Shown: in pieces, positions 18,842 to 50,947 of the stretch | Layout: each line of letters opens with the position of its first letter | Numbering within the stretch: position 1 is the first letter of the stretch | Assembly: GCF_913773725.1 (NCBI RefSeq) | Contig: NZ_CAJYGK010000086.1 | Location: 62,001 to 126,000 of the forward strand | Length of the DNA stretch: 64,000 bases | Origin: an uncultured Aquabacterium sp. | GTDB taxonomy: Bacteria > Pseudomonadota > Gammaproteobacteria > Burkholderiales > Burkholderiaceae_C | Reading direction: 5' to 3' | The notes under the pieces: model-generated | The model's database searches: none | The model's input: the letters and a program-made list of their open reading frames with translations, nothing else | What the model was told of the DNA's origin: nothing | Program-made: the position numbers and the translations under genes

Positions 18842-18862
18842 CCCACCGAGGAGGACCATCCC

Positions 18863-20149: not shown

Positions 20150-20163
20150 CACCGCGAGGCCGC

Positions 20164-20650: not shown

Positions 20651-20717
20651 GTTTTACGCGCCCGCGCCCTGCTCGATGGCGCCGCGTGCTCTCCGGCGCT
20701 GCCAGCGGCCGTGTCAC

Positions 20718-20734
20718 TGCTTCAGGCTGGAGCA
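20718..20734. promoter_or_regulatory. Upstream activator dyad TGCTTCA-GGC-TGGAGCA
   Basis: A 7-3-7 dyad with one mismatch, preceded by GTGTCAC. The same element, TGCTCCA-CGC-TGGAGCA preceded by GTGTCACA, lies at 33504-33520. Both sit upstream of sigma-54-type promoters, here about 140 bp before the -12 element. It is a candidate binding site for an enhancer-binding activator. Confidence 0.6.
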
Positions 20735-20851
20735 GTGTGCAACGTACAAGGTGGCACAGTTTCTTGGGTAAACCCTGCGCCCGGCGCTCGCCAAAGCCGC
20801 TTCAATTCCCTCCACTGTGTCAGCCATGCGCGTTTGACCAGCAAAACGAAC

Positions 20852-20867
20852 TGGCACGGGCCTTGCC
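20852..20867 (+). promoter_or_regulatory. Sigma-54 (RpoN) promoter of the first PQQ dehydrogenase
   Basis: TGGCACGGGCCTTGCC matches the -24/-12 consensus TGGCACG-N4-TTGC, with the required GG-N10-GC spacing. The predicted start of transcription is near 20877, 34 bp before the ATG at 20911. Confidence 0.75.
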
Positions 20868-20910
20868 CTCAGCACACCTCGTCCTTCCCCCCAACACTGA
20901 GGAGACTCGA

Positions 20911-22647
20911 ATGAAGTTGAAGACCCTTTCCCTGTTGATGGCCGCCGGCCTGGCCTCGTTTGCCGGCCACACCGCGGTCACCGACGCCATGCTGGCCAAC
21001 GACGCCAAGACCACCGGCGACGTGCTCTCCTGGGGCATCGGCACCGAAGGTCAACGCTTCTCGCCGCTCAAGACCATCAACACCAAGAACGTGGGCAAGC
21101 TGGTCCCGGCCTGGTCGTTCTCGTTCGGTGGTGAAAAGCAGCGCGGTCAGGAATCGCAACCGCTGGTCCACAACGGCAAGATGTTCGTGACCGGTTCGTA
21201 CTCGCGCATCTACGCGCTGGACGTCAAGACCGGCAAGAAGCTGTGGAAGTACGAGCACCGTCTGCCTGAAGGCATCATGCCCTGCTGCGACGTGATCAAC
21301 CGCGGCGCCGCCCTGTACGACAACCTGGTGATCTTCGCGACCCTGGACGCCCAGCTGGTTGCCCTGAACCAGGAAACCGGTGAAGTCGTCTGGAAGGAAA
21401 AGATCGACGACTACGCCGCCGGCTACTCGGCCTCGGCCGCGCCGCTGATCGCCGAAGGCCTGCTGCTGACCGGCGTGTCCGGTGGTGAATTCGGTATCGT
21501 GGGTCGTGTGGAAGCCCGCAACCCCAAGACCGGTGACCTGGTCTGGGTGCGTCCGACGGTGGAAGGCCACATGGGCTACACCTACGACAAGGACGGCAAC
21601 AAGAAGGAAAACGGCATCTCGGGCACCCGCAACGCCACCTGGACCGGTGACCTGTGGAAGACCGGCGGCGCAGCCACCTGGCTGGGCGGCACCTATGACG
21701 CCAAGACGGGTCTGGCCTACTTCGGCACCGGCAACCCGGCTCCGTGGAACAGCCACACCCGCAAGGGCGACAACCTGTTCTCGTCGGCCACCGTCGCCAT
21801 CGACGTGAAGACCGGCCAGATCAAGTGGCACTACCAGACCACCCCGCACGACGGCTGGGACTTCGACGGTGTGAACGAGTTCGTCACCTTCGACCTGAAC
21901 GGCAAGCGCATGGGCGCCAAGGCCGACCGCAACGGCTTCTTCTACGTGCTGGACGCCACCAACGGCAAGCTGGAAAACGCCTTCCCGTTCGTCAAGAAGA
22001 TCACCTGGGCCAAGGGCATCGACCTGAAGACCGGCCGTCCGATCGAGAACCCGGAAAGCCGTCCGGGTGACCCGGCTGCCGGCGACGGCAAGAAGGGCAA
22101 GACCGTGTTCAGCGCCCCGTCCTTCCTGGGCGGCAAGAACCAGATGCCGATGGCCTACAGCCCGAACACCGGCCTGTTCTACGTGCCGGCCAACGAATGG
22201 GGCATGGACATCTGGAACGAGCCGATCGGCTACAAGAAGGGTGCTGCGTTCCTGGGCGCCGGCTTCACCATCAAGACCGTGTTCGACGACTACATCGGCG
22301 CCATGCGTGCCGTGGACCCGAAGACGGGCAAGATCGTCTGGGAAGTCAAGAACAACGCCCCGCTGTGGGGTGGTGTGCTGACGACCGCTGGCGACCTGGT
22401 GTTCTGGGGCACGCCGGAAGGCTACCTGCAGGCCGCCGACGCCAAGACCGGCAAGATCCTGTGGAAGTTCCAGACGGGTTCTGGCGTGGTTGCACCTCCC
22501 GTGACCTGGGAAGACAAGGGCGAGCAGTACGTCGCCGTGGTCTCGGGTTGGGGCGGCGCCGTGCCTCTGTGGGGCGGCGAAGTGGCCAAGAAGGTCAACT
22601 TCCTGGAGCAAGGCGGCTCGGTCTGGGTCTTCAAGCTCGTGAAGTGA
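20911..22647 (+). CDS. PQQ-dependent alcohol dehydrogenase, lanthanide-type active site
   Basis: A 578-residue periplasmic quinoprotein with a signal peptide ([20 protein letters not shown]) and an eight-bladed propeller of repeats such as [14 protein letters not shown]. Adjacent cysteines C125-C126 form the PQQ-contact disulfide. The catalytic aspartate is D317 in [11 protein letters not shown]. The residue two further on is D319, the extra aspartate that in XoxF, ExaF and PedH marks lanthanide-dependent enzymes. It oxidises primary alcohols and probably aldehydes, passing electrons to cytochrome c. ATG 20911 has the ribosome-binding site GGAGAC. A sigma-54 promoter precedes it and a strong terminator follows, so it is transcribed alone. 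Confidence 0.93.
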
Positions 22648-22689
22648 TCTGGTTCCATCCAGAGCCCTGAGACCCAGGGCTCCTTCCAG

Positions 22690-22726
22690 AGGCCTCGGCG
22701 TTCCTCCACCGCCGGGGCCTTTTTTT
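22690..22726 (+). terminator. Rho-independent terminator after the first PQQ dehydrogenase
   Basis: An 11-bp stem AGGCCTCGGCG/CGCCGGGGCCT with one U-G pair and a 9-base loop is followed by seven T residues. Confidence 0.92.
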
Positions 22727-22872
22727 CGTCTGTGCAGGGCGCATGACCCGCACCCGGCCGCTGCGAAAAAAAAGCGCACACCCTCTCGCGGGAATCGAGC
22801 AGCGCCCACGATCTGATTGCCGGCAGCTTTTATCTCGTACGCGATGACATCAGGCACAGCGCAGACTTCAAA

Positions 22873-23177
22873 TTGAACCCGGTGACCTGCAAGGCATCCG
22901 ACGTGCTTTTGCACGGCAATGGCCACCAATATGCCAAAAGCCATTTTCTGGCCTCGCTGTCACTTGCAAAAAGGCATCCCGACAGGCCTGTGTTACCAAC
23001 GTCTGTCGGTTTCTGGAAGCCCTCGAGCAGGACCTGTCCGAGGTGTGGGATCACCCGCTTCCGGTGGTGGCGGCCTGCCTGACGAAGTACGACACTGACG
23101 ATCTGGTGTTCGCCAACCTGCCCGACATCGAACTGCCAACCCGGAGAATGTCGCTGTGCCCCCGGGGACACCGGTGA
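22873..23177 (+). pseudogene. Possible frameshifted gene remnant of unknown family
   Basis: One frame is open from about 22746 and reads protein-like up to roughly 22985, with only a TTG (22873) as possible start. A second frame then reads CRFLEALEQDLSEVWDHPLP and continues with charged and hydrophobic alternation to a TGA at 23175, with the high third-position GC of neighbouring genes. A shift of frame near 22985 would join them. No family is recognised. It could be a decayed gene, a sequencing indel, or chance. Confidence 0.25.
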
Positions 23178-23215
23178 GGTCCCCCGATCGACGGTGCAGC
23201 AGACGCCAGAGACGG

Positions 23216-23280
23216 TGTCGTGCCGACTGTCGTGCTGGACTGTCGTGCTGGTGTCGCCTGCTGTCGTGCCCGTGTCGTGG
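23216..23280. repeat. Six helically phased TGTCGTGC-like direct repeats
   Basis: TGTCGTGC or close variants begin at 23216, 23228, 23241, 23252 (variant), 23262 and 23273, i.e. every 10-13 bp, about one DNA turn. The array ends ~50 bp before the start of the XRE-type regulator gene. It may be a multi-site operator, possibly for that regulator itself. There are too few copies, and they are too closely packed, for CRISPR. Confidence 0.6.
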
Positions 23281-23332
23281 CACCCACCTGTCACTTGAGC
23301 CAAGCTATGGGACGTGACAACAAGGACTCCTG

Positions 23333-23803
23333 ATGAACGTTCAAAAACTGCGTCTGCAACGAGGTTGGTCCCAGCAGCAGCTTGCCGACCTGAGTGGCCT
23401 CAGCACCCGCACCATCCAGCGCATCGAAAATGGCCAACCGGCAAGCGCCGAGTCCTTGAAATCACTGGCGTCGGTCTTCGAGATCGACTTTTCATCTCTC
23501 TCCAGTGAGCAAGACATGGCCGTCCCCCCCACCGCCTCCAGGCTTGACGAACAACTGGCGCTTGCCAAGGTGCGCAAACTGCGTGCTTTTTACATCCACC
23601 TGTTGAGGTACGTCGTGGCCATCGCCGTCCTGGCCGTCATCAACCTCGCGACGCATCCCACCAGGCTGTGGTTCATCTGGCCCGCCATGGGCTGGGGTAT
23701 CGCAATCCTCTTCCGTGCGGCGGCCACCTTCGAATTCCTCCCCTTCTTCGGCGCGGAATGGGAGCGAAAACAGGTGGAAAAGCACCTGGGTCGGCCGCTT
23801 TGA
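23333..23803 (+). CDS. XRE-type regulator fused to a 2TM domain
   Basis: A 156-residue protein. The N-terminal helix-turn-helix (LRLQRGWSQQQLADLSGLST then RTIQRIENG) is of the Cro/XRE class. After a linker, the C-terminal ~75 residues contain two hydrophobic helices of the 2TM (YrkL/'2TM domain') type. It would be a membrane-anchored DNA-binding protein. Its promoter region carries the phased TGTCGTGC repeats. The next gene is a membrane methyltransferase 127 bp downstream on the same strand. Targets are unknown. Confidence 0.8.
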   Translation: MNVQKLRLQRGWSQQQLADLSGLSTRTIQRIENGQPASAESLKSLASVFEIDFSSLSSEQDMAVPPTASRLDEQLALAKVRKLRAFYIHLLRYVVAIAVLAVINLATHPTRLWFIWPAMGWGIAILFRAAATFEFLPFFGAEWERKQVEKHLGRPL

Positions 23804-23930
23804 TTCAAGGCCGCTGCCCCGAATATTCTGCAAGGGCGTCTCATTGAAAAAGGACGAGATGCGACGCACCATGCGGGTCCATCTCAATTCGTCCGACCAC
23901 ATATGCCGGCATTTCCAAAAGCAGCCGAAC

Positions 23931-24524
23931 ATGAACAATCCATCTGAAGTGGTTTTCCGTGTCGCGGTCGGTGTGGTCGTGGTCACGTGGTTTGCCGTAC
24001 GCGGCCATTTTCAGAAAAAGGTCGGCAGCAGCAAAAAGATCTCGTCTCACCACGGACGGCGCGAAAAGCGCTCCTACATGCTGGTGAGCGTGTCCTTTCT
24101 GCCCATCCTTCTTTATGTATTCACGTCCCCGTTCAGCTTCGCACACATCGCCATTCCAAGCTGGCTGCGCTGGGCAGGCCTGATCTCGGGGTTGTCGGCG
24201 AGCGGCCTGTTCGCGTGGACCCATTTCGCACTGGGCAGGAACTGGTCGGGCCTGCTGGAGATCGCCAAGGACCATGAGCTGGTGACGGGCGGACCCTACC
24301 GGTTTGTGCGCCACCCGATGTACTCGGCTTTTTTTCTGATGGGGATCGGCGTCCTGCTGCTGTCCTCGAACTGGCTGGTCGGTGGCCTCAACCTGGCCGC
24401 CGTGACCGCCATGTACCTTGTCCGGGTCGCCGACGAAGAAGCGATGATGCTGGGTCACTTCGGTCAGAGCTACCAGACCTACATGGACCACACCGGCCGG
24501 GTGTTCCCCCGGTTGAGGACCTGA
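23931..24524 (+). CDS. Membrane methyltransferase of the isoprenylcysteine/phospholipid methyltransferase family
   Basis: A 197-residue integral membrane protein with about four to five helices. The C-terminal half has the ICMT/PEMT-like motif GPYRFVRHPMYSAFFLMGIG, followed by a conserved EE near the end (VADEEAMM), which forms the SAM site in this family. Bacterial members often have unknown acceptors (isoprenoid, lipid or small thiol). ATG 23931 (MNNPSEVVF) is chosen. The upstream open frame overlaps the XRE gene and lacks family similarity. Confidence 0.82.
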   Translation: MNNPSEVVFRVAVGVVVVTWFAVRGHFQKKVGSSKKISSHHGRREKRSYMLVSVSFLPILLYVFTSPFSFAHIAIPSWLRWAGLISGLSASGLFAWTHFALGRNWSGLLEIAKDHELVTGGPYRFVRHPMYSAFFLMGIGVLLLSSNWLVGGLNLAAVTAMYLVRVADEEAMMLGHFGQSYQTYMDHTGRVFPRLRT

Positions 24525-24731
24525 CTGGAGAGTCAGGTCGAAGGAAGTCACATACGGCGGCATCGTGGTCACCGCGGGCGGCCAGAAGCCTCCGGGACGG
24601 AACACGAGGTCTCTGCGCCGCGCTTCCAACGCATCACCGCTTCTCGAAGCGTTCGTTACCCGCCATTAGCATCCATCCCGTCGGCCGCTGCCTACACTGA
24701 CTGTCCCGCAACCTTTTCGCTGTCCAGCCTC

Positions 24732-25154
24732 ATGAAACTTCCGACTGCCGCCGCCATCGCGCTCGCCCTCTCCAGTGGTTTCGCCCACGCGGCCGAAGTG
24801 CCCGACAGCCTGATCGAGAAGACGCTCGGCATCACCGGGGTCAAGCACGAGAAGGTCACACAGACGAAGTACGGCATGACCTACTCGGATGTCTCGTACA
24901 AGACGCAAAACGGCGAAACGCTGCTGGTGTTGCGGCTGGGAACTGCCGAGCAATACGCCTTCTGGAAGCAGGCGGCCGGCCCCGCCCTGCAACCCGTGTC
25001 GGGTATCGGCGCAGAAGCGTTCCAGATCAAGAAGCCCAAAACCCTGTGTGCAAAGAGCCAGGCCACCGCTGCGTGCGCCACCCCGGATTACTTTCTGAAG
25101 AGCCCCAAGATCACCGACGAGCATCTCCAGATCATCGTCAAGGCAGCCCTGTAA
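24732..25154 (+). CDS. Exported small protein of unknown function
   Basis: A 140-residue protein with a clear signal peptide (MKLPTAAAIALALSSGFAHA) and a mature part of ~120 residues containing two cysteines (in LCAKSQATAACATPDYF) that could form a disulfide. I do not recognise the family. It lies 18 bp upstream of the NarL-type sensor kinase on the same strand, so it may be co-transcribed and could act as a periplasmic sensor accessory. That is inference from position only. Confidence 0.7.
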   Translation: MKLPTAAAIALALSSGFAHAAEVPDSLIEKTLGITGVKHEKVTQTKYGMTYSDVSYKTQNGETLLVLRLGTAEQYAFWKQAAGPALQPVSGIGAEAFQIKKPKTLCAKSQATAACATPDYFLKSPKITDEHLQIIVKAAL

Positions 25155-25172
25155 GAGCGCGGTTTTTCTTCT

Positions 25173-26165
25173 ATGGTGTCGGCCATGGAAGAAGACCACA
25201 CCCCCGACACCGAGCCCCCCGCCCCGTCCTCCACCGCCGCGCGAGACGCCATGCTCGTGCTGTGTGCGGTGCTTGTCTACTTCGCCCTGGCAACGCGTTT
25301 CGAGGCGTTCGAGTACGTGCTCGGCTTCACACGAGGCTATGAACACTGGCAGATCGACGAGTTGCCGATGACCGCCCTGGTGCTTGCGCTCGGGATGAGC
25401 TGGTACTCCTGGAATCGCACCACCGAGTCCCGTGCCGCCCTGCAAGGACGCATCCAGGCTCAGCGCCACGCACAGGCCCTGCTGCAGGACAACCGGCGGC
25501 TGTCCCAGGCATTGCTGCGCATTCAGGACGAAGAGCGCCGGGCCCTGGCCCGCGAACTGCACGACGAGTTCGGCCAGAGCTGCACGGCCATCCGCGCCGA
25601 TGCCAGCTACATTCTGCAGCGCAGCGAGGACCCGGACATCGGGGACAGCGCACAGCGCATCACCGAATCAGCCGCCCGCCTGAACCTGCTCGTGCGCGAC
25701 ATGCTGGGCCGCCTGCGACCGCCCGACCTCGACAGCCTGGGCCTGGAGGCCGCGCTGCAGACCCTGTGCGAGCGCTGGGAGCAACAGACCGGCATTCCGT
25801 GCAGCCTGATCCCGAGAGGCCTGCAGCAGCCCATCCCGGACGAGGTGGCCGTGGCCCTGTACCGCCTGGTACAGGAGGCGCTCACCAACGTGGCACGACA
25901 CGCGGAAGCCACTTACGTGCATGTGAGCACACAGGTGGACAAGCGCGCAGACGGCACTGCCCGCCGGGTCGGGCTGCGCATTGAAGACGATGGCCGCGGC
26001 CTGCCAAGCGAGTTCTCGCCCGGGCAGCAGGGCTACGGCCTCGTCGGGATGCGGGAACGGGTTTCTTCGCTCGATGGGACCATCGCGTTCCGGCCGGTTT
26101 CCAAACAGGGCTTGCGCATCGAGGTCGAGATCCCGGTGGGCGGCCCGGACAAGGAGGGCCGATGA
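25173..26165 (+). CDS. NarL/UhpB-type sensor histidine kinase
   Basis: A 330-residue kinase. Two N-terminal membrane helices (~26-42 and 64-80) flank a short periplasmic loop. A coiled segment leads to the HisKA_3 box RALARELHDEFGQSCTAIRA with phospho-acceptor H130. The C-terminal ATPase domain has the N-box EALTNVARHAEAT and the G-box EDDGRGLPSEF...GYGLVGMRERV. ATG 25185 is an alternative start. No regulator gene is adjacent. The likely partner is the LuxR-type regulator at 29622, beyond the convergent dehydrogenase operon, and AgmR/PedR-like control of PQQ enzymes is plausible. Confidence 0.88.
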   Translation: MVSAMEEDHTPDTEPPAPSSTAARDAMLVLCAVLVYFALATRFEAFEYVLGFTRGYEHWQIDELPMTALVLALGMSWYSWNRTTESRAALQGRIQAQRHAQALLQDNRRLSQALLRIQDEERRALARELHDEFGQSCTAIRADASYILQRSEDPDIGDSAQRITESAARLNLLVRDMLGRLRPPDLDSLGLEAALQTLCERWEQQTGIPCSLIPRGLQQPIPDEVAVALYRLVQEALTNVARHAEATYVHVSTQVDKRADGTARRVGLRIEDDGRGLPSEFSPGQQGYGLVGMRERVSSLDGTIAFRPVSKQGLRIEVEIPVGGPDKEGR

Positions 26166-26197
26166 GGCCGACCGGATCCCCCCCCTGCGCGCCATGC

Positions 26198-26686
26198 TCA
26201 CGGCCTGGCATCGGCCGGCGCTGGCGCCTCCAGGAATGTGCGCACGGCCCACAAGGCCTCGGGCGTCAACGCCTCGCGCCACGCGGGCATGTGGGTCACC
26301 CCCAGCTTCACCTTGCCCTCCATCACCGACTTGTAGAAATAATGGTCCGCATCGCCCTGGCAGCGCGATCTGAGCGACACATCCGCGATTCGCTGACAGA
26401 AGCGCCCCACGATCCGAAGCGCAGGCGCGGGCCCCAGCCGGTTGGCATCGGCGCCATGGCACACCGCGCAGGACTGGTTGTAGACACTGCGCCCGACCTG
26501 AACGATCACGGCACGGTCAGGGTGGTGGCGATAGGGGTTGCCTTCCATGCCCGCGGTCACGGGCGGCAGCAAGGCGGCATCGAACACAGGCGGCATGGGC
26601 GAAGGCGTGGCGCAGACGAACCCGGCCCACGCCGCCATCGTCAGCGCACAGGCCCCCCTCAGCAAGCGGCGTGCTGTCATGCTCAT
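26198..26686 (-). CDS. Periplasmic cytochrome c linked to the calcium-type dehydrogenase
   Basis: A 162-residue exported protein with a signal peptide (residues 1-26) and a single heme site C73-A-V-C76-H77. A predicted methionine ligand lies in the GVTHMPAWREAL segment. It resembles cytochromes c550 that accept electrons from PQQ-alcohol dehydrogenases. Its ATG at 26686 overlaps the stop of the upstream pentapeptide-repeat gene (ATGA), so the two are translationally coupled. It is the last gene of a three-gene operon led by the PQQ dehydrogenase. Confidence 0.85.
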   Translation of the reverse strand: MSMTARRLLRGACALTMAAWAGFVCATPSPMPPVFDAALLPPVTAGMEGNPYRHHPDRAVIVQVGRSVYNQSCAVCHGADANRLGPAPALRIVGRFCQRIADVSLRSRCQGDADHYFYKSVMEGKVKLGVTHMPAWREALTPEALWAVRTFLEAPAPADARP

Positions 26687-27288
26687 TTCCACTCCTCCTG
26701 AGGCGGGCATCCGAGGCAGCCCGTGAAGTCGGAATCCGGGAAGATGGTGTAGCGAAGGAAGTTGCCCTCGAACGTCGCTCCACGCAGGTTGGTCGTCACG
26801 AACTTGCCCTCCTGCAGGTTGGCGCCCACGATGCGCGCCCCGGCCAGCCACGCAAACTGGAAGCGGGCCATCTCGAGGTTGGCCCCGGTGAAGTCGGCCT
26901 CGGTGAAGTCGCTGCGCATCAGCCGGGCCTGTTCGAGGTCGGCGCCGACGAAGCGCGCCCGCCGGAACGTCGCTGCGGGCGCGTTGACATGGTTCAACTT
27001 CGCCGCGGTCAGGTCGGCGTCGTCCAGCCGTGCGCCCGCCAGGTTGGCCGCATGCAGATCGGCTCGCACGAGCATCGCGCCGGTCAGATCCGCTCCGACC
27101 AGATTGGCACCGGCAAGACGGGCATGCCGCAAGTCGGCACCGGGGCACCGGGTGTAGGGCCAGATGGGACAGCCGTTGACGACCATCGGCTCGAAGGCCG
27201 CGTTCTCCGCTGCGGGCGGGGCGGCCCGCAGGCCCGCGGAGGACAGCGCGGCCGCCACGACGAGCAGACGCAGGATGCAGGAAGCCAT
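26683..27288 (-). CDS. Exported pentapeptide-repeat protein
   Basis: A 201-residue protein with a signal peptide (MASCILRLLVVAAALSSAG). About 20 A(D/N)LxxA-type pentapeptide repeats follow, from RHARLAGANLVGADLTGAML through ANLEMARFQFAWLAGARIVG, and build a right-handed quadrilateral beta-helix. Cysteine pairs at both ends (NGCPIWPYTRCPG and GCLGCPP) may cap the helix by disulfides. It lies between the calcium-type PQQ dehydrogenase and its cytochrome gene and overlaps the latter by 4 bp. A scaffold or docking role in the periplasm is inferred; no such function is established to my knowledge. Confidence 0.85.
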   Translation of the reverse strand: MASCILRLLVVAAALSSAGLRAAPPAAENAAFEPMVVNGCPIWPYTRCPGADLRHARLAGANLVGADLTGAMLVRADLHAANLAGARLDDADLTAAKLNHVNAPAATFRRARFVGADLEQARLMRSDFTEADFTGANLEMARFQFAWLAGARIVGANLQEGKFVTTNLRGATFEGNFLRYTIFPDSDFTGCLGCPPQEEWK

Positions 27289-27361
27289 GGGTACTCCTGT
27301 ATGGGACAGGCAACAAAGCAGGGCCACCGGCCCCGCTTCTCCACGAAGACTCAGACGTGGC

Positions 27362-29239
27362 TCACTTTCTGACCTTCGGCAGCTTGAAGGCCCAGAACGA
27401 CCCGCCTTGGGTCACCTGCTTGGTCAACGCAGCCATGTCACCGCCCCACAGCGGCACGGCGCCCCCGAAGCCGCTGGACACCCCGATGTACTGCTCGCCA
27501 TCGGTCTCCCACGTGACGGGCACCGACACAATGCCGGAGCCGGTCTGGAACTTCCACAATTCCTTGCCGGTCTTCGCATCGAATGCCTTGACGTAGCCAT
27601 CGGTCGTGCCCGTGAAGACGAGGTTGCCCGCGGTCGTCAGCGTACCCGCCCACAGCGGGAACTGCTCCTTGTGCTCCCATGCAATCTTCCCGGTCTTGGG
27701 ATCGATCGCCCGCAGGATGCCCACATGGTCATCGAACAGCCGCTTGATCCGGAAGCCCTGCCCCAGGTAAGCCGAGCCGGCCTTGTAGGTCAGGTGCTCG
27801 GTCCAGTAGTCCATGGCCCAGTGGTTGGCCGGGATGTAGAACAGGCCCGTGTCGGGGCTGTAGGACATGGGGTGCCAGTTGGTGCCCCCGAGGAACGGCG
27901 GCGACACGAAGACGGTCTCACCCTTCTCCTGGCCATCCTTGGGCTGAGGTGGGCGGTTGCCCGTTTCCACCGGGCGCCCCGTCTTGAGATCGATGCTCTT
28001 GGCCCAGGTGATGCCGTCCACGAAAGGCCATGCACCGATCAGCGAGGTGGGCTTGTTGGGGTAGCCGCTCCCCGTGGCCAGCTTGGTCCGGTCTGTGACG
28101 TAAAAGAAGCCGTTGCGGTCGGCGTGGGCGCCGGCCTTGACCAGGTTGCCGTTCTTGTCCTTGTATTCGAACAGGACGATGGAATTGTTGCCCGAGAAGT
28201 CCCAGGCATCGTTAGGCGTATGCTGGTAGAAGCCCTTCAATTCGCCGTTGGCGGCGTCCACGTAGGCCTGGCCCGAGGTGAACAGGCTGTCCCAGTTGCG
28301 CGGGTCATCCCCCTCTTTCGTCCGCTTCCATGTGTTCCATGGCGCAGGATTGCCGGCACCGATCACAATGGTGTTGGTCTCGACGTCGAAGCTGGCGGTC
28401 TGCCAGGGAGCTCCACCTCCGTGGCTCCATGCCTCTACCAGCTTTCCTTCCTTGTCACGGGGCCACGAAGGCGCCTTCGGGTCCCCCGTGTATGAGCTGT
28501 CCTTGCCGTTGAGACGACCCTTGTGGCCTTCCACGAAGGGGCGAGCCCACACTTCTTCTCCGGTCTCCGGATCCCGCGCAAAGAGCCATCCCACCACGCC
28601 GAACTCGTCTCCGGATGAACCGTGAATGAGCAAAACGCGGCCCGTCTTCTGGTCCTTCACCACGAACGGTGCGCCAGTCATGGTGTAGCCCACCTTGTGA
28701 TCCGCGAACTTCTCCTTCCAGATCAACTTGCCGGTGTCCTTGTCCAGCGCGATGATCCCGGCATCGAGCGTGCCGACAAACAGCTTGTTGCCGTAGATGG
28801 CTGCGCCACGGTTGACCACATCGCAGCAGGGCCGGATGTCATCCGGCAGACGGGCCTCATACTCCCACAGGCGCTTGCCCGTGCGGACATCCACCGCAAA
28901 AACCCGGGAGTAGGAAGCAGTGATGTAGGCCACACCATCGTGAACGATCGCCTGTCCTTCCTGACCCCGCTGCTTCTCTCCCCCGAACGAAAAGCTCCAC
29001 GCCGGCACGATGCCCGCAACGTTGTCCTTGTGAATCTTCTTGAGCGGACTGTATCGCTGAGCCTTCATGCCCATGCCATAAGTGAGCACATCGGTGGTCG
29101 TCTTGTCGTCGTTGACGATGTCTTCCCAGGTCACCTTCTTGGCTTCGGCAGCCGCGCTGGCGCAAAGGCAGGCAACGACCATCGCGGAAAGGACGGTGCG
29201 TGGCTTGCTTCGATGAAGAGCAGGCTTCATGGACTTCAT
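27362..29239 (-). CDS. PQQ-dependent alcohol dehydrogenase, calcium-type active site (ExaA/PedE-like)
   Basis: A 625-residue periplasmic quinoprotein with a signal peptide ending near CASAAAEA. It has the propeller repeats and the disulfide pair in RPCCDVVNRG. The catalytic aspartate is D347 in TPNDAWDFSG; two residues on is S349, as in calcium-dependent ethanol dehydrogenases of the ExaA/PedE class. The length is also typical of that class. It oxidises ethanol and other primary alcohols and feeds cytochrome c. ATG 29239 is preceded by GGAGACCGACC. It is followed by the pentapeptide-repeat and cytochrome genes and is divergent from a LuxR-type response regulator. Confidence 0.94.
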   Translation of the reverse strand: MKSMKPALHRSKPRTVLSAMVVACLCASAAAEAKKVTWEDIVNDDKTTTDVLTYGMGMKAQRYSPLKKIHKDNVAGIVPAWSFSFGGEKQRGQEGQAIVHDGVAYITASYSRVFAVDVRTGKRLWEYEARLPDDIRPCCDVVNRGAAIYGNKLFVGTLDAGIIALDKDTGKLIWKEKFADHKVGYTMTGAPFVVKDQKTGRVLLIHGSSGDEFGVVGWLFARDPETGEEVWARPFVEGHKGRLNGKDSSYTGDPKAPSWPRDKEGKLVEAWSHGGGAPWQTASFDVETNTIVIGAGNPAPWNTWKRTKEGDDPRNWDSLFTSGQAYVDAANGELKGFYQHTPNDAWDFSGNNSIVLFEYKDKNGNLVKAGAHADRNGFFYVTDRTKLATGSGYPNKPTSLIGAWPFVDGITWAKSIDLKTGRPVETGNRPPQPKDGQEKGETVFVSPPFLGGTNWHPMSYSPDTGLFYIPANHWAMDYWTEHLTYKAGSAYLGQGFRIKRLFDDHVGILRAIDPKTGKIAWEHKEQFPLWAGTLTTAGNLVFTGTTDGYVKAFDAKTGKELWKFQTGSGIVSVPVTWETDGEQYIGVSSGFGGAVPLWGGDMAALTKQVTQGGSFWAFKLPKVRK

Positions 29240-29329
29240 GGTCGGTCTCCAGTGTGTTTGTGACGGTGAACACGTGTGCGGGTGCACACCAACCGTTCAA
29301 ACGCACCTCCCATGCCCGTCAGAGCCCGA

Positions 29330-29351
29330 TTCAAGGAATTCTTCCCTTGAA
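29330..29351. promoter_or_regulatory. Dyad TTCAAGG-N8-CCTTGAA upstream of the calcium-type dehydrogenase
   Basis: Perfect 7-bp arms flank AATTCTTC, with a further overlapping CTTCCC/GGGAAG pairing to the right. It lies about 90-110 bp upstream of the dehydrogenase start, a suitable position for a LuxR-type regulator site. Confidence 0.4.
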
Positions 29352-29550
29352 GAACGGGAAGCCTTCCTGACATGATCGCCAACCGCGTACCAGGGCGAGG
29401 ATTTCCATCAAAGTGGCCAGCCGTTCCGCATGCCCGGCACCGAGAACGCTACGCTCTTTATGTGGCTCATCAGATGAGCTTGGGTGGTAACCCGTATTTC
29501 TGATCCGCTGCTCCCTCGGTCGTTGTGGCAAGCGCATGCATTCCGAGACA

Positions 29551-29599
29551 GTCTTTGCTTCAAAGTGAGACGGTGCTGTGCAGCGGTTGAAGCAAAGAC
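29551..29599. promoter_or_regulatory. 13-bp perfect inverted repeat in the response-regulator leader
   Basis: GTCTTTGCTTCAA (29551-29563) pairs exactly with TTGAAGCAAAGAC (29587-29599) across a 23-base loop. The right arm ends 5 bp before ATG 29604 and 23 bp before ATG 29622. It could be an autoregulatory operator or an mRNA hairpin limiting translation. Confidence 0.6.
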
Positions 29600-29621
29600 A
29601 GAGATGGAGAGAGATGACGAC

Positions 29622-30251
29622 ATGACGATCAACGTGATGCTGGTCGACGACCACGCCGTTGTGCGCGCGGGATACAAGCGCCTGATCGACAACGAGCCCG
29701 GCCTGCGCGTGATCGCAGAGGCCGAATGCATCGCGGACGCCCAGGAAGCCATGCGCGCACACGAGATCAACGTGGTGGTCATGGACCTCGCCTTGAGAGG
29801 TGAGAGTGGCATTGAAGGCATCAGGCGGCTGGGTGGCCGCTATCCGCACCTGCGCATCATGGTCTTCAGCATGTACGACCACTGCGTGTATGTGACGCAG
29901 GCTCTGAGGTATGGTGCACTGGGCTATGTCACCAAGTACGCCAGACCCATGGAGATGCTGTCTGCGCTGCGCAAAGTGGCCTCCGGTCAACGCGCGCTGT
30001 CGTCCGATATCGTCGAGCGCCTGGCCCAGCATGCCGCAGGGGGAAGCTCACCGCTGCACGACCTGACCCCCCGGGAGTTCGAGATACTGCGCATGACAGC
30101 CAACGGGCTGACGCCCAACGACATCGCCGTGCAGATCCGGCTGAGCCCGAAGACCATCTTCAATCAACTGTCCGTCATCCGCGCGAAGCTGAACGTCCGG
30201 TCCGACATCCAGCTTTACCGGTTGGCCCTCGAAGAGGGCCTGGTGGACTGA
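29622..30251 (+). CDS. LuxR/NarL-family response regulator
   Basis: A 209-residue regulator with a receiver domain (acidic pair D9-D10, phospho-acceptor D55 in VVVMDLALRGESG) and a C-terminal LuxR helix-turn-helix (LTPREFEILRMTANGLTPND). ATG 29622 gives the usual MTINVMLVDDH start; ATG 29604 would add six residues. It is divergent from the calcium-type PQQ dehydrogenase. It is therefore a candidate AgmR/ExaE/PedR-like regulator of that enzyme, probably paired with the kinase at 25173. The leader inverted repeat suggests autoregulation. Confidence 0.88.
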   Translation: MTINVMLVDDHAVVRAGYKRLIDNEPGLRVIAEAECIADAQEAMRAHEINVVVMDLALRGESGIEGIRRLGGRYPHLRIMVFSMYDHCVYVTQALRYGALGYVTKYARPMEMLSALRKVASGQRALSSDIVERLAQHAAGGSSPLHDLTPREFEILRMTANGLTPNDIAVQIRLSPKTIFNQLSVIRAKLNVRSDIQLYRLALEEGLVD

Positions 30252-30263
30252 ACGCCGGCAAGT

Positions 30264-31256
30264 TCAGATCTGCCGCAACCCGGGCGTGGTGCCCACGTTG
30301 CCCTGCTTGTCGACCCACATCACGTCCACGCCCCATTGCCTGGCGATCTGGTCGACCTGTTCGGGGCCCGCCACGAAGAAGACCTTGGTCAATGCGTCGG
30401 CCAGGGCCCCGCTCGGCGCCGCCACGGTGACACCGGAGAGCGCCAGCGGCGAGCGTCCTGTGCGGGGATCGAAGATGTGGTGATACCGATAGTCCGGCGT
30501 GAAGGTGGTGAGGCTGTCCGACGAAGTGGCCAGTGCACGCCCATCCGAGACCAACCGGGTCAGGAAGCGCGACTCGTCCCGAGGGTCTGCAACCCCCAGC
30601 ACCCACGGCACCTGACGGACGCTGCGACCCACGGGCAGCCACTCCCCGGTGTCAATCAAGGCATGGGCCACACCATAGGACTGCAGCAGCGCCTTGACGC
30701 GATCGGCCGCATGCCCTTGGGCGATGCCATTGAGGGTGACGCCCATGCCTTTCTGAGCAAGGCGGATGCGGTCCGGCTCCACGTGCATCTTGCGCCAGCC
30801 GACCAGCGCCCGCGCTGCCGCCAGGCGCCGGTCGTCCGGCACGCCGCCTTGCCCCCGGGCGCCATCGAAGGCCTCCCACAGCGGCTGGACGGTGACGTCG
30901 AACTTGCCGTCACACCGCGCCGAAATCGATTGCGCCACTTCCAGCACCTTGACCAGCTCCGACGGCGGCTTGCGCAGCTCTCCCTTGGCATTGAGCTGCC
31001 GCACCGCGCTGTCTTCGCGGAACAGGCTCAGGATCTGATCAAGGTGCTGCAGCAAGGACACGGACTCGTCCAGCGCATCGGCCAGGGCGCCAATGTCCGT
31101 GTGGGCGGCCTTGATCGTCAACGTGGTGCCGAATCCCTGTAGCCGACGCTCCCGCCAGACCAGTTCGGTGGTGGCAGGGGCGGTGTGACCGGTACCCAGC
31201 GCCCAGAGTGTCCCCAGGCCCATGGCCTGACAAAGGCGACGACGCGACGTGTTCAT
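30264..31256 (-). CDS. apbE: ApbE-family FAD:protein FMN transferase
   Basis: A 330-residue exported protein with a twin-arginine-like or Sec signal (TSRRRLCQAMGLGTLWALG). The ApbE core includes GKFDVTVQPLWEAF, GVTLNGIAQGHAADRV, IDTGEWLPVG (usually DxGG in other members) and the C-terminal DALTKVFFV Mg-binding segment. ApbE attaches FMN to a threonine of exported FMN-binding domains. Its start overlaps the stop of the NosR-like gene by 4 bp, making T164 of that protein the obvious target. Confidence 0.88.
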   Translation of the reverse strand: MNTSRRRLCQAMGLGTLWALGTGHTAPATTELVWRERRLQGFGTTLTIKAAHTDIGALADALDESVSLLQHLDQILSLFREDSAVRQLNAKGELRKPPSELVKVLEVAQSISARCDGKFDVTVQPLWEAFDGARGQGGVPDDRRLAAARALVGWRKMHVEPDRIRLAQKGMGVTLNGIAQGHAADRVKALLQSYGVAHALIDTGEWLPVGRSVRQVPWVLGVADPRDESRFLTRLVSDGRALATSSDSLTTFTPDYRYHHIFDPRTGRSPLALSGVTVAAPSGALADALTKVFFVAGPEQVDQIARQWGVDVMWVDKQGNVGTTPGLRQI

Positions 31257-33391
31257 GCCACCTGCTCCTTGATTGTTCTGATGGGTATGGTCTGTCCCTT
31301 GCGCGCACTGATCAATGGGGCACAACGCGTATCGCTGTCGTGAATCGCCACGCAGTCCATGCACTGGAAGCACTCGTTGTAGTCAATCTGCCCCTGCGGC
31401 TCGATCGCCTGGTAGGCGCAGCGGTGACGGCAGGTCTGGCAGGGCTGGCCACACTCGGCGCGACGGGGGATCCAGCGGGTCAGGCGCAGACGACCGAACA
31501 CCGCCATCGTGGCGCCCAGCGGGCACAGGTATCGGCAGTACCCCTTGTAGACGAACACGCTGAGCAGCACCATGGCCACGGCCCACACCACAAAGGGCCA
31601 GTTGCGCACAAAACCCAAGGTGATGGCCGTCTTGAACGGCTCGACCTCGACCGCCGTGTCCACCAGGTTGGAGCCGGGGATCAGGGCCAGCCCCACGATC
31701 CCGGCCAACACGGCGTACTTCACATTCTTCAAGCGCCGGTCCCATACCCGGGATACCGTGCGGCGCTTCAACCGCTTGTGGATGCCCAGGAAGCCGGCAA
31801 GCTGGCTGACCAGATCCTGGAGGGCCCCGAAGGGGCACAGCCAGCCGCAGAACGTCCCACGCCCCCAGACGAAAAAGGTCACCGCCGCATAGGCCCACAG
31901 CGACACGGTCATCGGGTCATACAGGAGGAAGCCGAGGCTGCGGCCATTGACGATCGCCTGGATCACGCCCGTGAGGTTGACGATCGAAAGCTGCCCTTGA
32001 GCGAACCACCCGATGAAGCCCAGGGTGTAAAGCAGGTAGGCGTTGCGCACCCAGCGCATGCGGCGCTCGTCGCGCACCAGCCAGGCCGGGCGGGCCAACA
32101 TCACCGACAGCAAAGCCAGGCCCGCTGCCAGAACGCCCAGTTCCGTCTTCCGCCCGCTCCAGCTCGTCTTCCAGCTCTGCTGCTCGTTGCCGGACGGGAT
32201 CGCGTAGTCCTCGGGAAGGAGCACTTCCATGTCGAACTCCTTGCGAACCTTTTCCGGCAGGATCAACCCCTTTTCTCTCGTCACGCTCAGCGCGAACTTC
32301 ATGGGCTGAGTCGGATCCAGGCTGGCCTGACTGATCACCTTGAAGACCTTCCAATGCACGTCTTCACCCTGCCAGGAGGCCGGCAGCCGGATCTTGTCAT
32401 CGACATCCAGATCGCGCAGTTCGATCGGAAGACCTCCCTGGCTGAGCGTCAGGCGGCTCGGAACGGCTCCGCCCTGGTAGTCCTCGCCCACGAAGCTGTA
32501 ACGGCCCCGGGTGGCCACCAGGAAGGCGTGATCGCCAGGCTCGATCCAGTTCTGAAGGTAGCGCCACCCCTTTTCCGTCAGGACGTTGCGCCCGACGGTG
32601 GGCACATTCAGGTGCAGGACCATCCACTCGGTGAAGCGGCCGTTCGGATCACGCCGGGCTTCCTCATCCTGCCCCTCTCCGGCCGTCCCGGCAAACGCAG
32701 CCTCGACATCCCGGTTGCGCAGAGCCTGGCGCGTGACCAGGCCGGCGCGTTGCAAGGCATCGAAATCCAGTGTCTCGAAGACATCCTCGCGGATGCGCCC
32801 GATCAGCGACGGGTCCCGCCCCTCGGAAAAACCCATCTTCGCGCGGGCCACCGCCAGCGCAGAGGACATCAGGCTCTGGTTCACGATCCGGACCGACGCG
32901 GTCGCCTTGGCGACCCCATCGATGACCACGTTGGCGCTGCCCTCCTGCCCGTCCCGCTTGGCGCGGCTGTCGATCTTCACGTGCTGCTTGAGGTTCAGCC
33001 CCTTGTATTGCGCCACGAACTTGTCCAGCGGCTCGGGGCCCAGCCCATCCAGAAACACCGGCTCGTGTTGTGACAGCACCCGGACATCCCGGAACTCCCC
33101 TCGCGCATCCAGCAACACCAGCAGGTTCACGGGTGTACCAGAGAAGCCCGGCAGCGGGGCCAGGTCGATCGACTCGAAGGCATAGCCCACGAGCACCGTC
33201 TCGGTTGCTTCCTGCTTGTAGATGGGCCACACAGGCAGGGCCTTGTCCTTCTCACCCACGATCAGGGGCAAAGGAAAGGCGCTCTTCATCGATGCGGCAT
33301 CCATCACACCGGCGCCAGCCACGTGTGGCGTCAAGCACATCCACAGCGCGAACAGGCATGCCGCAGCCAGCCGCCAGAACGGGGTACCCAT
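31253..33391 (-). CDS. NosR-like membrane flavo/iron-sulfur protein
   Basis: A 712-residue inner-membrane protein. A signal-like helix is followed by a periplasmic FMN-binding domain whose flavinylation motif is DGVAKATAS (threonine 164). About six membrane helices follow, then two CxxxCP motifs (FCGWLCPFG, YCRYLCPLG) and cytoplasmic Fe-S cysteine clusters (CGQPCQTCRHRC, CFQCMDC). NosR moves electrons between quinol and periplasmic acceptors for nitrous oxide reduction, but no nos genes are here. In this setting it probably links quinone to the PQQ/cytochrome branch. ATG 33391 has GAGG eight bases upstream and is preferred over 33406. A sigma-54-type promoter lies just upstream. Confidence 0.85.
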   Translation of the reverse strand: MGTPFWRLAAACLFALWMCLTPHVAGAGVMDAASMKSAFPLPLIVGEKDKALPVWPIYKQEATETVLVGYAFESIDLAPLPGFSGTPVNLLVLLDARGEFRDVRVLSQHEPVFLDGLGPEPLDKFVAQYKGLNLKQHVKIDSRAKRDGQEGSANVVIDGVAKATASVRIVNQSLMSSALAVARAKMGFSEGRDPSLIGRIREDVFETLDFDALQRAGLVTRQALRNRDVEAAFAGTAGEGQDEEARRDPNGRFTEWMVLHLNVPTVGRNVLTEKGWRYLQNWIEPGDHAFLVATRGRYSFVGEDYQGGAVPSRLTLSQGGLPIELRDLDVDDKIRLPASWQGEDVHWKVFKVISQASLDPTQPMKFALSVTREKGLILPEKVRKEFDMEVLLPEDYAIPSGNEQQSWKTSWSGRKTELGVLAAGLALLSVMLARPAWLVRDERRMRWVRNAYLLYTLGFIGWFAQGQLSIVNLTGVIQAIVNGRSLGFLLYDPMTVSLWAYAAVTFFVWGRGTFCGWLCPFGALQDLVSQLAGFLGIHKRLKRRTVSRVWDRRLKNVKYAVLAGIVGLALIPGSNLVDTAVEVEPFKTAITLGFVRNWPFVVWAVAMVLLSVFVYKGYCRYLCPLGATMAVFGRLRLTRWIPRRAECGQPCQTCRHRCAYQAIEPQGQIDYNECFQCMDCVAIHDSDTRCAPLISARKGQTIPIRTIKEQVA

Positions 33392-33434
33392 TGTTTGTCG
33401 CCTCATTGTGTTTGTTATGGGGAGCGGCCTTTTC

Positions 33435-33450
33435 AGCAAGCCATGTGCCG
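33435..33450 (-). promoter_or_regulatory. Sigma-54-type promoter of the NosR-ApbE operon
   Basis: On the minus strand CGGCACATGGCTTGCT has the GG-N10-GC spacing and a consensus TTGCT -12 box; only the first -24 base departs (C for T). Transcription would start near 33425, about 34 bp before ATG 33391. Confidence 0.62.
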
Positions 33451-33503
33451 TGACGAAATGACCGATTTCATGGCGGTTGTAACGGTTTCCCCGGGGTGTC
33501 ACA

Positions 33504-33520
33504 TGCTCCACGCTGGAGCA
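33504..33520. promoter_or_regulatory. Upstream activator dyad TGCTCCA-CGC-TGGAGCA
   Basis: A perfect 7-3-7 inverted repeat, preceded by GTGTCACA. It matches the element upstream of the lanthanide-type dehydrogenase (20718-20734), including the GTGTCAC prefix. Its centre is ~63 bp from the minus-strand -24 box and ~150 bp from the plus-strand one. Confidence 0.68.
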
Positions 33521-33663
33521 CACTGGGGTGGCCCCTTGGGTGCAAACCCGCGGTACGTTGTGTCATGTGTCCCGTGACACCTCTGCGAACAAAGCCCGGT
33601 CAATGGCGCCGATTCACATGGCGTATCAGGGTTAGCCCTCGGCTTTCGGGCTGGATCGGCCGG

Positions 33664-33679
33664 TGGCATGGCCTTTGCG
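33664..33679 (+). promoter_or_regulatory. Sigma-54 promoter of the cytochrome c550/XoxJ-like genes
   Basis: TGGCATGGCCTTTGCG matches TGGCACG-N4-TTGC with GG-N10-GC spacing and one departure (T for C). Transcription would start near 33690, about 36 bp before ATG 33726. Confidence 0.72.
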
Positions 33680-33725: not shown

Positions 33726-34205
33726 ATGACCGACCGCACCGCCCGCTGGCTTCGCCGTTCCGCCCTCGCCGTTTTCCTCGCCAGCAGCAGCCTTGCCGCC
33801 ATGGCCCATGGCGATGTGGTGCCCCATGCCGTCGACACCACCGGCCTGCCTGACCTCGGGAAAGAGTGGCTCGCCACCAACCCGTACATCGGCGACAAGA
33901 AGGCCATCGAAATCGGCTCGTCGGCCTTCGGCCAGAACTGCGCCCGCTGCCACGGCATCGACGCCATCTCGGGCGGCATCGCGCCCGACCTGCGCAAGCT
34001 GGACAACGAGTGCGCCACGCAATCGAACCCGCGCAAGCGCGAAGCCTGCCTGGCCGAAGTCGACAACTACTTCCTGACCACCGTGCGCAATGGTCGGACC
34101 CGCAACGGCGCCGTGTACATGCCGCCGTTCGAAGGCATCCTGAACCAGGAAGCCATCTGGGCCATCAAGAGCTACCTGGTCTCGCGCCGCGAGAAGCCGT
34201 TCTGA
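33726..34205 (+). CDS. pedF: Cytochrome c550, PedF family
   Basis: A 159-residue periplasmic cytochrome with a signal peptide ending AMAHG. It has the family start HGDVVPHAVDTTGLPDLG and one heme site C72-A-R-C75-H76. Two further cysteines (in DNECATQS and REACLAEVD) probably form a disulfide, and a methionine ligand lies in VYMPPFEGIL. PedF accepts electrons from PQQ-alcohol dehydrogenases and passes them to a terminal oxidase. It has its own sigma-54 promoter and is followed 167 bp downstream by the XoxJ-like gene. Confidence 0.9.
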   Translation: MTDRTARWLRRSALAVFLASSSLAAMAHGDVVPHAVDTTGLPDLGKEWLATNPYIGDKKAIEIGSSAFGQNCARCHGIDAISGGIAPDLRKLDNECATQSNPRKREACLAEVDNYFLTTVRNGRTRNGAVYMPPFEGILNQEAIWAIKSYLVSRREKPF

Positions 34206-34303
34206 TCGGCCGCTGAACGCAGCGTGGCCCGCTGGCTCATCACATGAGACAGCGCGCGAACACCTCACAGCCCGTCTGCTGCAAAGCGCGGGTTGTCCCT
34301 CAC

Positions 34304-34329
34304 GGGCCTGGCCTTCCTCTGCCAGGCCC
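34304..34329 (+). promoter_or_regulatory. Perfect intercistronic hairpin between pedF and the XoxJ-like gene
   Basis: GGGCCTGGC pairs with GCCAGGCCC around an 8-base loop, with TTTT a few bases further on. It may be a partial terminator or an mRNA-processing/stability element that sets the ratio of the two gene products. Confidence 0.5.
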
Positions 34330-34372
34330 ATCGTGTTTTCAGTGCCTGAAAGACAGCAATAAGGAGACAGTC

Positions 34373-35236
34373 ATGCATGCAACCGATCGTCGCGCAGTCC
34401 TCCGCAAGTTGGCCCTCGCTGGGCTGGCTGGCACGGGCGCGCTGGGCCTGCCCGGCCTGGCCCGGGCCGAAAGCGGCAACCTCGACAAGATCAAGGAACG
34501 CGGCGTGCTCACCGTGGCGGTGTACGACGACCTCCCTCCGTTCAGCACCGACAAGGGTCTCGGCGGCATCGACGCCCTGATCGCCCAGGCCATTGCGGCG
34601 CAACTGGGCGTCAAGGCCAAGTTGCTGCCTTTCCCCGGCGGGGAAGACATGGAAGACGATCTGCGCTTCATGGTGTGGAAAGGCCACTACCTTGGCTATG
34701 GTCCGGCCGACGTGATGCTGCACGTGCCCGTGGAGCGACCGCTGATGAACGCCAATCCGCAGGTCACCATCTTCGCGCCGTACTGGCGCGAGCGCGTGAT
34801 GCTGGCCCGCAACCGCGAGCTGGTACCCGCCGTGGAAAGCCTGGACGCGCTCAAGCCCTATGACATCGGTGTCTCGGGCCAGACCCTGGCTGGCTGGCTG
34901 ATGGCCAATGCGGACGGCGGGGCCCTTCAGCCGCGTCTGCGCACGACCTACAAGGATGGCGTGGCGGCCGCACAGGCCCTGCTCAAGGGCGAGGTGCAGG
35001 TGGTGGGCGGCATGAATTCCGAGTTGCTCCACGTTCTGGGGCAGGACAAGCGCTTCGCCGTCGAGCCCTTGCCTTCGCCACGCGTCTCGCGCGATGGCTG
35101 GGCCATCGGCTGCGCCGTGAAGCGCGACGCAGAGCCGCTGGCCCAGGCTGTGGCAACGGCCATGAGCACCCTGTCGGATTCCGGTGAGCTGCGCAAGATC
35201 TTCCAGACTGCTCAGCTGGAGTGGCGCCGGCCCTGA
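34373..35236 (+). CDS. XoxJ/MoxJ-like periplasmic substrate-binding protein of the quinoprotein system
   Basis: A 287-residue exported protein. The N-terminus (TDRRAVLRKLALAGLAG) has a twin-arginine-like signal. The mature part is a family 3 periplasmic-binding fold (DKIKERGVLTVAVYDDLPPF, then GGIDALIAQAIAAQLG). Proteins of this kind sit next to methanol and ethanol quinoproteins (MoxJ/XoxJ) and are thought to help enzyme maturation or activation, not nutrient uptake; no ABC permease is nearby. Start 34373 has AAGGAG upstream. It is the last gene of this cluster on the plus strand. Confidence 0.83.
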   Translation: MHATDRRAVLRKLALAGLAGTGALGLPGLARAESGNLDKIKERGVLTVAVYDDLPPFSTDKGLGGIDALIAQAIAAQLGVKAKLLPFPGGEDMEDDLRFMVWKGHYLGYGPADVMLHVPVERPLMNANPQVTIFAPYWRERVMLARNRELVPAVESLDALKPYDIGVSGQTLAGWLMANADGGALQPRLRTTYKDGVAAAQALLKGEVQVVGGMNSELLHVLGQDKRFAVEPLPSPRVSRDGWAIGCAVKRDAEPLAQAVATAMSTLSDSGELRKIFQTAQLEWRRP

Positions 35237-50736: not shown

Positions 50737-50947
50737 GGCGACGGGACGTACGTGGACACGGTGGAGTGTCCAGCACAAGCCGCCGCGCCATACGGCATAA
50801 AAGCGCAGAAACCCCGCCCTTCATGCCGCAGTGCACGGTGCGCAGGACGGCGTAGCAAGACCAAATGCACGCTGTACTTGTATCATTGTGTAACCGACCG
50901 CACACTGATGACCTCGCGGCGCCGTCTGGCGCACCCGCTCCCGCTCC

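Follow-up and report, generated by a model that had tools for sequence, protein, structure and literature searches.

Paired dyads and sigma-54-type promoters in an Aquabacterium alcohol-oxidation cluster, and a candidate AcoR-type activator encoded elsewhere in the genome

The window analysed here is a stretch of 64,000 nucleotides from an uncultured Aquabacterium sp. (contig NZ_CAJYGK010000086.1, positions 62,001 to 126,000), and it carries a cluster of genes for alcohol oxidation by pyrroloquinoline quinone (PQQ) dehydrogenases. Two similar dyads lie in this cluster, each upstream of promoter elements of the -24/-12 type recognized by sigma-54 RNA polymerase, and we consider them as candidate upstream activating sequences (UAS) of an enhancer-binding protein (EBP). 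The genes and sites directly concerned are:

20717..20735, no strand assigned: dyad 1, CTGCTTCA-GGC-TGGAGCAG (18.5 bits), predicted EBP site (UAS) upstream of ADH1
20852..20866, plus strand: -24/-12 element of ADH1, TGGCACGGGCCTTGC, an exact pattern match 126 bp from the centre of dyad 1
20911..22647, plus strand: ADH1, a PQQ alcohol dehydrogenase of probable PedH/ExaF type (TIGR03075, 766 bits) with the motif WDFDG (DxD)
30264..31373, minus strand: ApbE-like FAD:protein FMN transferase (89 bits, cut-off 498)
31253..33391, minus strand: NosR-like membrane protein with a 4Fe-4S domain
33450-33436, minus strand: -24/-12-like element of the NosR-like gene, CGGCACATGGCTTGC, with one mismatch in the -24 box, 62 bp from the centre of dyad 2
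33503..33521, no strand assigned: dyad 2, ATGCTCCA-CGC-TGGAGCAC (13.0 bits), a putative UAS flanked by divergent promoters
33664..33678, plus strand: -24/-12 element of pedF, TGGCATGGCCTTTGC, an exact pattern match 152 bp from the centre of dyad 2
33726..34205, plus strand: cytochrome c550 PedF (TIGR04494, 191.5 bits, cut-off 122), with its start corrected to 33726
34244..35236, plus strand: XoxJ-like periplasmic binding protein, a neighbour of PedF in many loci

The best solved chains for ADH1 are 6zcv and 6zcw, and the alignment shows the WDFDG metal-site motif in common with 6zcv, which we take to be PedH. An extra aspartate at the metal site (DxD) marks the lanthanide type of these enzymes, and DxS marks the other class. 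By this rule ADH1 is probably of the PedH, lanthanide type, and dependence on rare earths is predicted. The NosR-like protein scores 557 bits against a cut-off of 1000 for NF046105 and is hence named only by likeness. The name XoxJ-like is based on a weak solute-binding match (SBP_bac_3) and on linkage to pedF, with which the gene is probably co-transcribed.

The initial annotation of the window, made from the letters alone, described both dyads (TGCTTCAGGCTGGAGCA, 20718-20734, and TGCTCCACGCTGGAGCA, 33504-33520) and their -24/-12 elements, and all were found where it had placed them. The promoter it assigned to the dehydrogenase at 20852 matches TGGCAY-N5-TTGC exactly. The two outward promoters it drew around dyad 2 fared differently, the pedF element being exact and the NosR-ApbE element imperfect. 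Upstream of the start codons, the GG/GC dinucleotides at TGGCAY-N5-TTGC spacing are exact at both 20852 and 33664. A GTGTCAC prefix said to be shared does precede both dyads, adjoining the dyad at site 1 and separated from it by one base at site 2, but it is present in only 2 of 84 aligned sites and was rejected as a component of the conserved site. When the window was scanned with a position weight matrix (PWM) trained without the window's genus, only the two dyads reached 12 bits; the next match, third in rank with 11.2 bits, is at 29555, in the gap between ADH2, the second dehydrogenase gene of the cluster, and a response regulator gene.

A dyad scattered through the genome would argue against a regulatory role, and the genome scan instead confines the close dyad to the two window sites. 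The pattern TGCTYCAN3TGGAGCA occurs at 2 places in 4,507,128 bases, both in the window, and the wider TGYTYCAN3TGRARCA likewise at 2 places in the window (reversed-pattern controls, 0 for each). The promoter pattern by itself is weak evidence, since strict sigma-54-like sites, defined as matches to TGGCAYN5YTGC, number 99 genome-wide (the ADH1 and pedF elements among them) compared with 43 for the reversed pattern. Many boxes are thus noise, as would be expected if the sigma-54 boxes were random matches in GC-rich DNA and the dyads chance or hairpin features; we regard this explanation as extremely improbable, given that independent rediscovery in other genera, held-out tests and footprints within the genus (all below) carry the sequence signal beyond chance. 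The 260 bp upstream of each of the 99 strict sites contain a dyad of at least 12 bits in three cases, ADH1 (18.5 bits), a PqqU-like TonB receptor gene (17.4) and PedF (13.0), and the next-best value is 10.3 bits. Across 358 kb of the genome's own sequence the PWM gives 11 matches that reach 12 bits, with repeated counting where stretches overlap, which indicates that isolated dyads exist and that selectivity lies in the pairing with a promoter. Two rpoN loci score over the cut-off in the source genome (G000), at G000:C101:3118-4626 and G000:C19:11381-12796.

Conservation in orthologous promoters, on which the initial annotation had staked its proposal, extends far outside the genus. The comparison set comprised the best 80 of 591 loci from a scan of named genomes, nearly all Betaproteobacteria by title; with six more rows for the window and members of its genus (G036 counted twice), there are 86 ADH1 rows. 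A TGGCAY-N5-YTGC match lies within 500 bp upstream of ADH1 in 63 of the 86 rows (57 of the 80 named loci) and upstream of PedF in 29 of 37 rows (27 of the 29 named), with counts of 3/22 rows for NosR and 0/5 for ADH2. A palindromic, zero-or-one-site expectation-maximization (EM) motif finder, applied to 87 of these promoters with the window's genus left out, recovered cTGttcCA-N3-TGgaaCAg, which is the window dyad, with a log-likelihood gain of 517 compared with 37-46 in five shuffled control sets. No clear consensus emerged from simply taking the best 8-bp palindrome of each promoter, in contrast to the EM model. In held-out tests, a model trained on ADH1 promoters found sites of at least 12 bits in 22 of 27 PedF promoters (shuffles, 0.7%), and one trained on PedF promoters found them in 37 of 57 ADH1 promoters (shuffles, 0.2%). 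The exact motif TGCTNCAN3TGNAGCA is poorly conserved (12 of 61 genomes of relatives), because bases in the arms drift and most members of the genus lack ADH1.

Of the 224 sigma-54-like sites in the 80 named loci, 125 are preceded by a dyad at a distance of 260 bp or less, a count that is partly circular in that the matrix derives from the same loci; 6 have one downstream, and the reversed-pattern control gives 0/36. The loci hold 288 dyads of at least 12 bits in all, compared with 28 in plain shuffles, and 67 of the 80 loci have at least one promoter-dyad pair. The longest open reading frames (ORFs) downstream of these pairs best match ADH1 (50), PedF (15), EBP (8), XoxJ (6), NosR (3), the PqqU-like receptor (1) and cytochrome b561 (1), with 38 unmatched and 3 pairs without an ORF. 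The unmatched ORFs include families of 16 and 6, which on inspection look like an aldehyde dehydrogenase and a beta-propeller protein, respectively, and some of the others are in the wrong frame.

Footprints are also apparent within the genus. Five genus sequences aligned ahead of ADH1 share without change the right arm TGGAGCA, the block TGGGTAAACCC and TGTGTCAG, and their promoters vary only within TGGCAY-N5-TTGC; the left arm of the dyad has drifted in G061. In the NosR/PedF intergenic region, TGCTCCAC, GTGCAAACCC, CATGTGCC and TGGCATGGCCTTTGCG are invariant in four sequences. The NosR promoter is kept in 4/4 aligned sequences, with one or two changes in G012, G065 and G036. Four genomes have both the dyad and the promoter ahead of the PqqU-like gene. 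The surroundings of dyad 1 differ between genomes: three genes (18290-20547) encoding a cytochrome b561-like protein, a 428-aa protein with CVACH and a cytochrome c lie between lctP and dyad 1 in the window, while lctP is directly upstream of ADH1 in G061, G012, G065 and G036, so that the window differs by an insertion or loss beside the enhancer.

The statement of the initial annotation that the window encodes no sigma-54 activator is borne out by a PF00158 search of the genome, in which all 17 matches (12 strong) lie outside it; the nearest (C86:141653) is NorR-like by eye. Three of the 12 strong genes (L011, L014 and L015) are of the AcoR type by inspection. L011 (G000:C53:134693-137257) encodes an 855-residue EBP of GAF-(PAS-like)-AAA+-Fis architecture, with GAF (PF01590), sigma-54 AAA+ (PF00158) and HTH_8 (PF02954) domains over the cut-off and GAFTGA in its sequence. 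Intact AcoR-type EBP genes are found near ADH1, in the same stretch, in 36 of the 80 named loci and are often divergent from pedF; in the 8 cases counted above, it is the EBP gene that carries the dyad-promoter pair. A 47-row tree places L011 in a single 41-row group (support 85/90) together with four orthologues from the genus and 36 of the 37 EBPs linked to such clusters, and leaves L014 and L015 outside; long branches are flagged. The closest ADH1 and EBP sequences suggest that the host is Sphaerotilaceae-like, within the Burkholderiales. Of 42 genus genomes, five contain a full-length L011 orthologue, and it is exactly these five that encode ADH1 with at least 84% identity. In a sixth, G024, the EBP is more distant and adjoins a dehydrogenase that resembles ADH2 (75%) more than ADH1 (50%). 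An activator encoded elsewhere, as had been proposed, thus has a matching candidate that co-occurs with the dehydrogenase and groups with EBPs of other clusters. These patterns make L011 a strong candidate for the missing activator, and from co-occurrence and adjacency we predict that it binds the dyad.

Convergent to L011 is the gene for the PqqU-like TonB receptor (L155:10855-13161), which has the third dyad-promoter pair, with 134 bp from the dyad centre to the -24 box. Its product scores 594 bits against a cut-off of 1200 for NF041535, hence PqqU-like, and relatives with 36-55% identity occur in 23 of the 80 ADH1 loci. PQQ auxotrophy was rejected as the reason for such a receptor, a pqqE match over the cut-off being present.

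Inducer-bound EBPs on a UAS loop to sigma-54 polymerase held in a closed complex and remodel it. On the computed sites, their conservation, the kinship and co-occurrence of L011 and the third promoter, we propose, at a probability of roughly 0.8, that the dyads (cTGttcCA-N3-TGgaaCAg) are UAS of an AcoR-type sigma-54 EBP, with L011 as the best candidate, that drives an alcohol-oxidation module. We infer binding, looping, transcription and inducer as follows. The inducer-bound EBP would oligomerize on the dyad, contact the sigma-54 polymerase at TGGCAY-N5-TTGC through a loop of about 60-150 bp, and hydrolyse ATP to open the promoter. The result would be expression of the PedH/ExaF-type dehydrogenase, PedF with the XoxJ-like protein, and the PqqU-like receptor, probably NosR-ApbE, and perhaps, more weakly, ADH2. 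The core of the initial annotation, a shared activating dyad with sigma-54 promoters read by an EBP encoded elsewhere, has come through the tests that sequence allows.

Several observations weigh against this proposal. Among the 80 loci, 159 of the 288 dyads have no sigma-54-like promoter within 260 bp, 13 loci have no promoter-plus-dyad pair in the stretch examined, and 23 have no strict promoter match upstream of ADH1. Within the genus, dyad 2 scores just 11.6 and 11.8 bits in G012 and G065, and in G036 the dyad ahead of the PqqU-like gene is not joined by a strict promoter. Both the model of the motif and its thresholds were devised in this analysis. The five genomes with ADH1 and L011 may be one clade, in which case their co-occurrence does not represent five independent events, and the cluster-linked EBP L145 falls outside the group holding L011. 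By eye, the three AcoR-type EBPs have nearly identical recognition helices, so that L014 or L015 could also bind. It is conceivable, then, that the dyad is read by L015, whose gene (G000:C94:43660-45795) adjoins that of the aldehyde dehydrogenase ExaC of the alcohol pathway, or by L014, near a trimethylamine N-oxide demethylase gene, and that L011 serves something else; an AcoR-ExaC pair has been predicted for ethanol catabolism in Ralstonia solanacearum (PMC4676750). We consider this unlikely. L015 occurs in 32 of the 42 genus genomes, whether or not ADH1 is present, and stands outside the cluster-linked group, and no pair of a dyad with a promoter matching the search pattern is seen in the neighbourhoods of L014 and L015. 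exaC itself was rejected as a target of the proposed regulon: it has TGGCACGGGCCATGC, but the best dyad in its promoter region reaches no more than 8.7 bits. The sigma-54 contact loop of L015 reads GAFPGA instead of GAFTGA, a difference that may impair or alter activation.

Between ADH1 and the ApbE-like gene lie further genes and sites:

25173-26165: histidine kinase of a local two-component system
27362-29287, minus strand: ADH2, the second dehydrogenase, with WDFSG (DxS)
29303..29317, minus strand: possible degenerate -24/-12 element of ADH2, GGGCATGGGAGGTGC (GGGCATGAGAGGTGC in G012 and G065)
29484-30251: NarL-type response regulator
29555..29573, no strand assigned: possible weak third dyad of the window, upstream of ADH2 and of the response regulator

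The 0/5 strict promoters of ADH2 would speak for its exclusion from the regulon, but dyads upstream and a degenerate GGGCATGRGAGGTGC make it a possible weak target. In the gap between ADH2 and the response regulator, four genomes have dyads of 11.2 (window), 13.3, 14.4 and 18.2 bits, and three have the degenerate GGGCATGRGAGGTGC. More broadly, a dyad of at least 10 bits is found upstream in 7 of 8 ADH2-type regions: the window (11.2 bits), L057 (13.3), L061 (14.4), L063 (18.2), L095 (13.3), L145 (15.8) and L065 (17.6), with none in L081. L065, from genome G024, is the one region of these with a strict promoter. ADH2 may therefore be a weaker member of the regulon. A pentapeptide-repeat protein gene (26683-27327) adjoins ADH2, a position kept in L081, L095 and L145.

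Four short elements recur near the main sites:

20765..20775, plus strand: second shared element, TGGGTAAACCC, between UAS and promoter of ADH1
20816..20822, plus strand: TGTGTCA, possible auxiliary half-site
33537..33549, plus strand: second shared element, TGGGTGCAAACCC
33559..33565, plus strand: TGTGTCA, possible auxiliary half-site

The palindrome-like pattern TGGGTN1-4AACCC, at 20765, 29481 and 33537, occurs in the ADH1, ADH2/response regulator and NosR/PedF intergenic regions, with 4 matches in the window against 0.27 expected, and is possibly a site of the local response regulator. These matches would also suit control of the cluster by the NarL-type two-component system, as with PedS2/PedR2 of Pseudomonas putida or the LuxR-type regulator of Azospirillum brasilense, where exaA is sigma-54-dependent (cited in PMC6115532); the dyad would then be the response regulator's site, possibly with sigma-54 involved. 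We rate this slightly below the assignment to L014 or L015. The dyad is kept in many loci without a NarL-type regulator in the stretch examined, where AcoR-type EBP genes are often present. TGGGTN1-4AACCC, the better candidate for a response regulator site, is found in two promoters only of other genera (L079 and L081), and is not enriched genome-wide (25 matches compared with 24 for the reversed control). Downstream of the cluster, at 46322-50778, are genes for a hybrid kinase and a response regulator, with below-cut-off matches to NahK/ErcS and NosR-family response regulator models. ErcS-type kinases take part in the control of ethanol oxidation in Pseudomonas.

TGTGTCA matches one half-site of the dyad and is present in all three regulon promoters (ADH1, PedF and PqqU-like) as well as at exaC (L156, near 9315). 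It lies within 260 bp of 5 of the 97 strict sites outside the window, the PqqU-like site included (4 of 96 for the others), and in 12 of 87 promoters of other genera, compared with 1.6 in shuffles. It is a possible auxiliary half-site.

AcoR has reportedly been studied in Cupriavidus, and the AcoR of Cupriavidus and Ralstonia resembles the present case as an AcoR-homologous EBP acting with sigma-54. In R. solanacearum, rpoN1 is required for growth on ethanol, and the predicted target of AcoR is an acetaldehyde dehydrogenase (PMC4676750), whereas the targets predicted here are a PedH-type dehydrogenase, cytochrome c550 and a TonB receptor, and exaC neighbours a different EBP, L015. BmoR of Thauera butanivorans is an alcohol-responsive sigma-54 activator of the promoter Pbmo, whose UAS is an inverted repeat lying 193 bp ahead of the -24/-12 element (PMC8899819, PMC6366067); after removal of the repeat, activation stayed like that of the wild type (PMC8899819). 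BmoR controls an alkane monooxygenase, unlike the EBP proposed here, and the likeness is one of description rather than of compared sequences or repeats. An alcohol or aldehyde signal for the EBP is plausible, because BmoR senses alcohol and because rpoN1 and AcoR-ExaC are linked to ethanol in R. solanacearum. Metal input could come through a two-component system or the second shared element rather than through sensing by the EBP itself.

Pseudomonas putida has related enzymes, with PedE/PedH and a c550, and with DxD and DxS dehydrogenases in one cluster, as here by the metal-site rule given above; its rare-earth switch is the two-component system PedS2/PedR2, and the available portions of PMC6115532 and PMC12997753 describe no EBP circuit for pedE or pedH. 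The exaA of A. brasilense reportedly encodes a sigma-54-dependent quinoprotein alcohol dehydrogenase too, but its partner is of the LuxR type and not an AcoR-type EBP (J Bacteriol 2017, cited in PMC6115532). In Burkholderia, a region involved in insect symbiosis encodes a Fis-family, sigma-54-dependent regulator along with a PQQ alcohol dehydrogenase and PQQ genes, and several of these genes are upregulated during symbiosis (PMC9088363). It is similar in gene content, which is the basis of the likeness rather than a comparison of orthology with L011, and the part of that paper at hand describes no binding site or regulon. EBP regulons are of a known kind; among the matches listed in a search of the open-access literature, none described this dyad motif, target set or EBP-dehydrogenase pair, nor the control of rare-earth-type alcohol dehydrogenases outside Pseudomonas.

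A wider possibility, which we put forward tentatively and consider rather doubtful, is that in Burkholderiales one sigma-54/AcoR-type activator with a conserved enhancer code of its own runs rare-earth-type alcohol oxidation as an alternative to PedS2/PedR2. Its regulon would include a TonB receptor for a cofactor (PQQ or a metal chelate) and, through a weaker dyad and promoter, the calcium-type dehydrogenase, with TGGGT-N-AACCC as a second input in this genus, possibly for metal. The question of switching is directly testable, now that the enhancer motif is defined, the candidate activator located and the list of targets short. These results also connect the cluster to reports of rpoN1-dependent ethanol growth in Ralstonia (PMC4676750) and of the symbiosis region of Burkholderia with its sigma-54 regulator (PMC9088363). 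The receptor gene in the predicted regulon would couple synthesis of the enzyme to uptake of its cofactor or metal.

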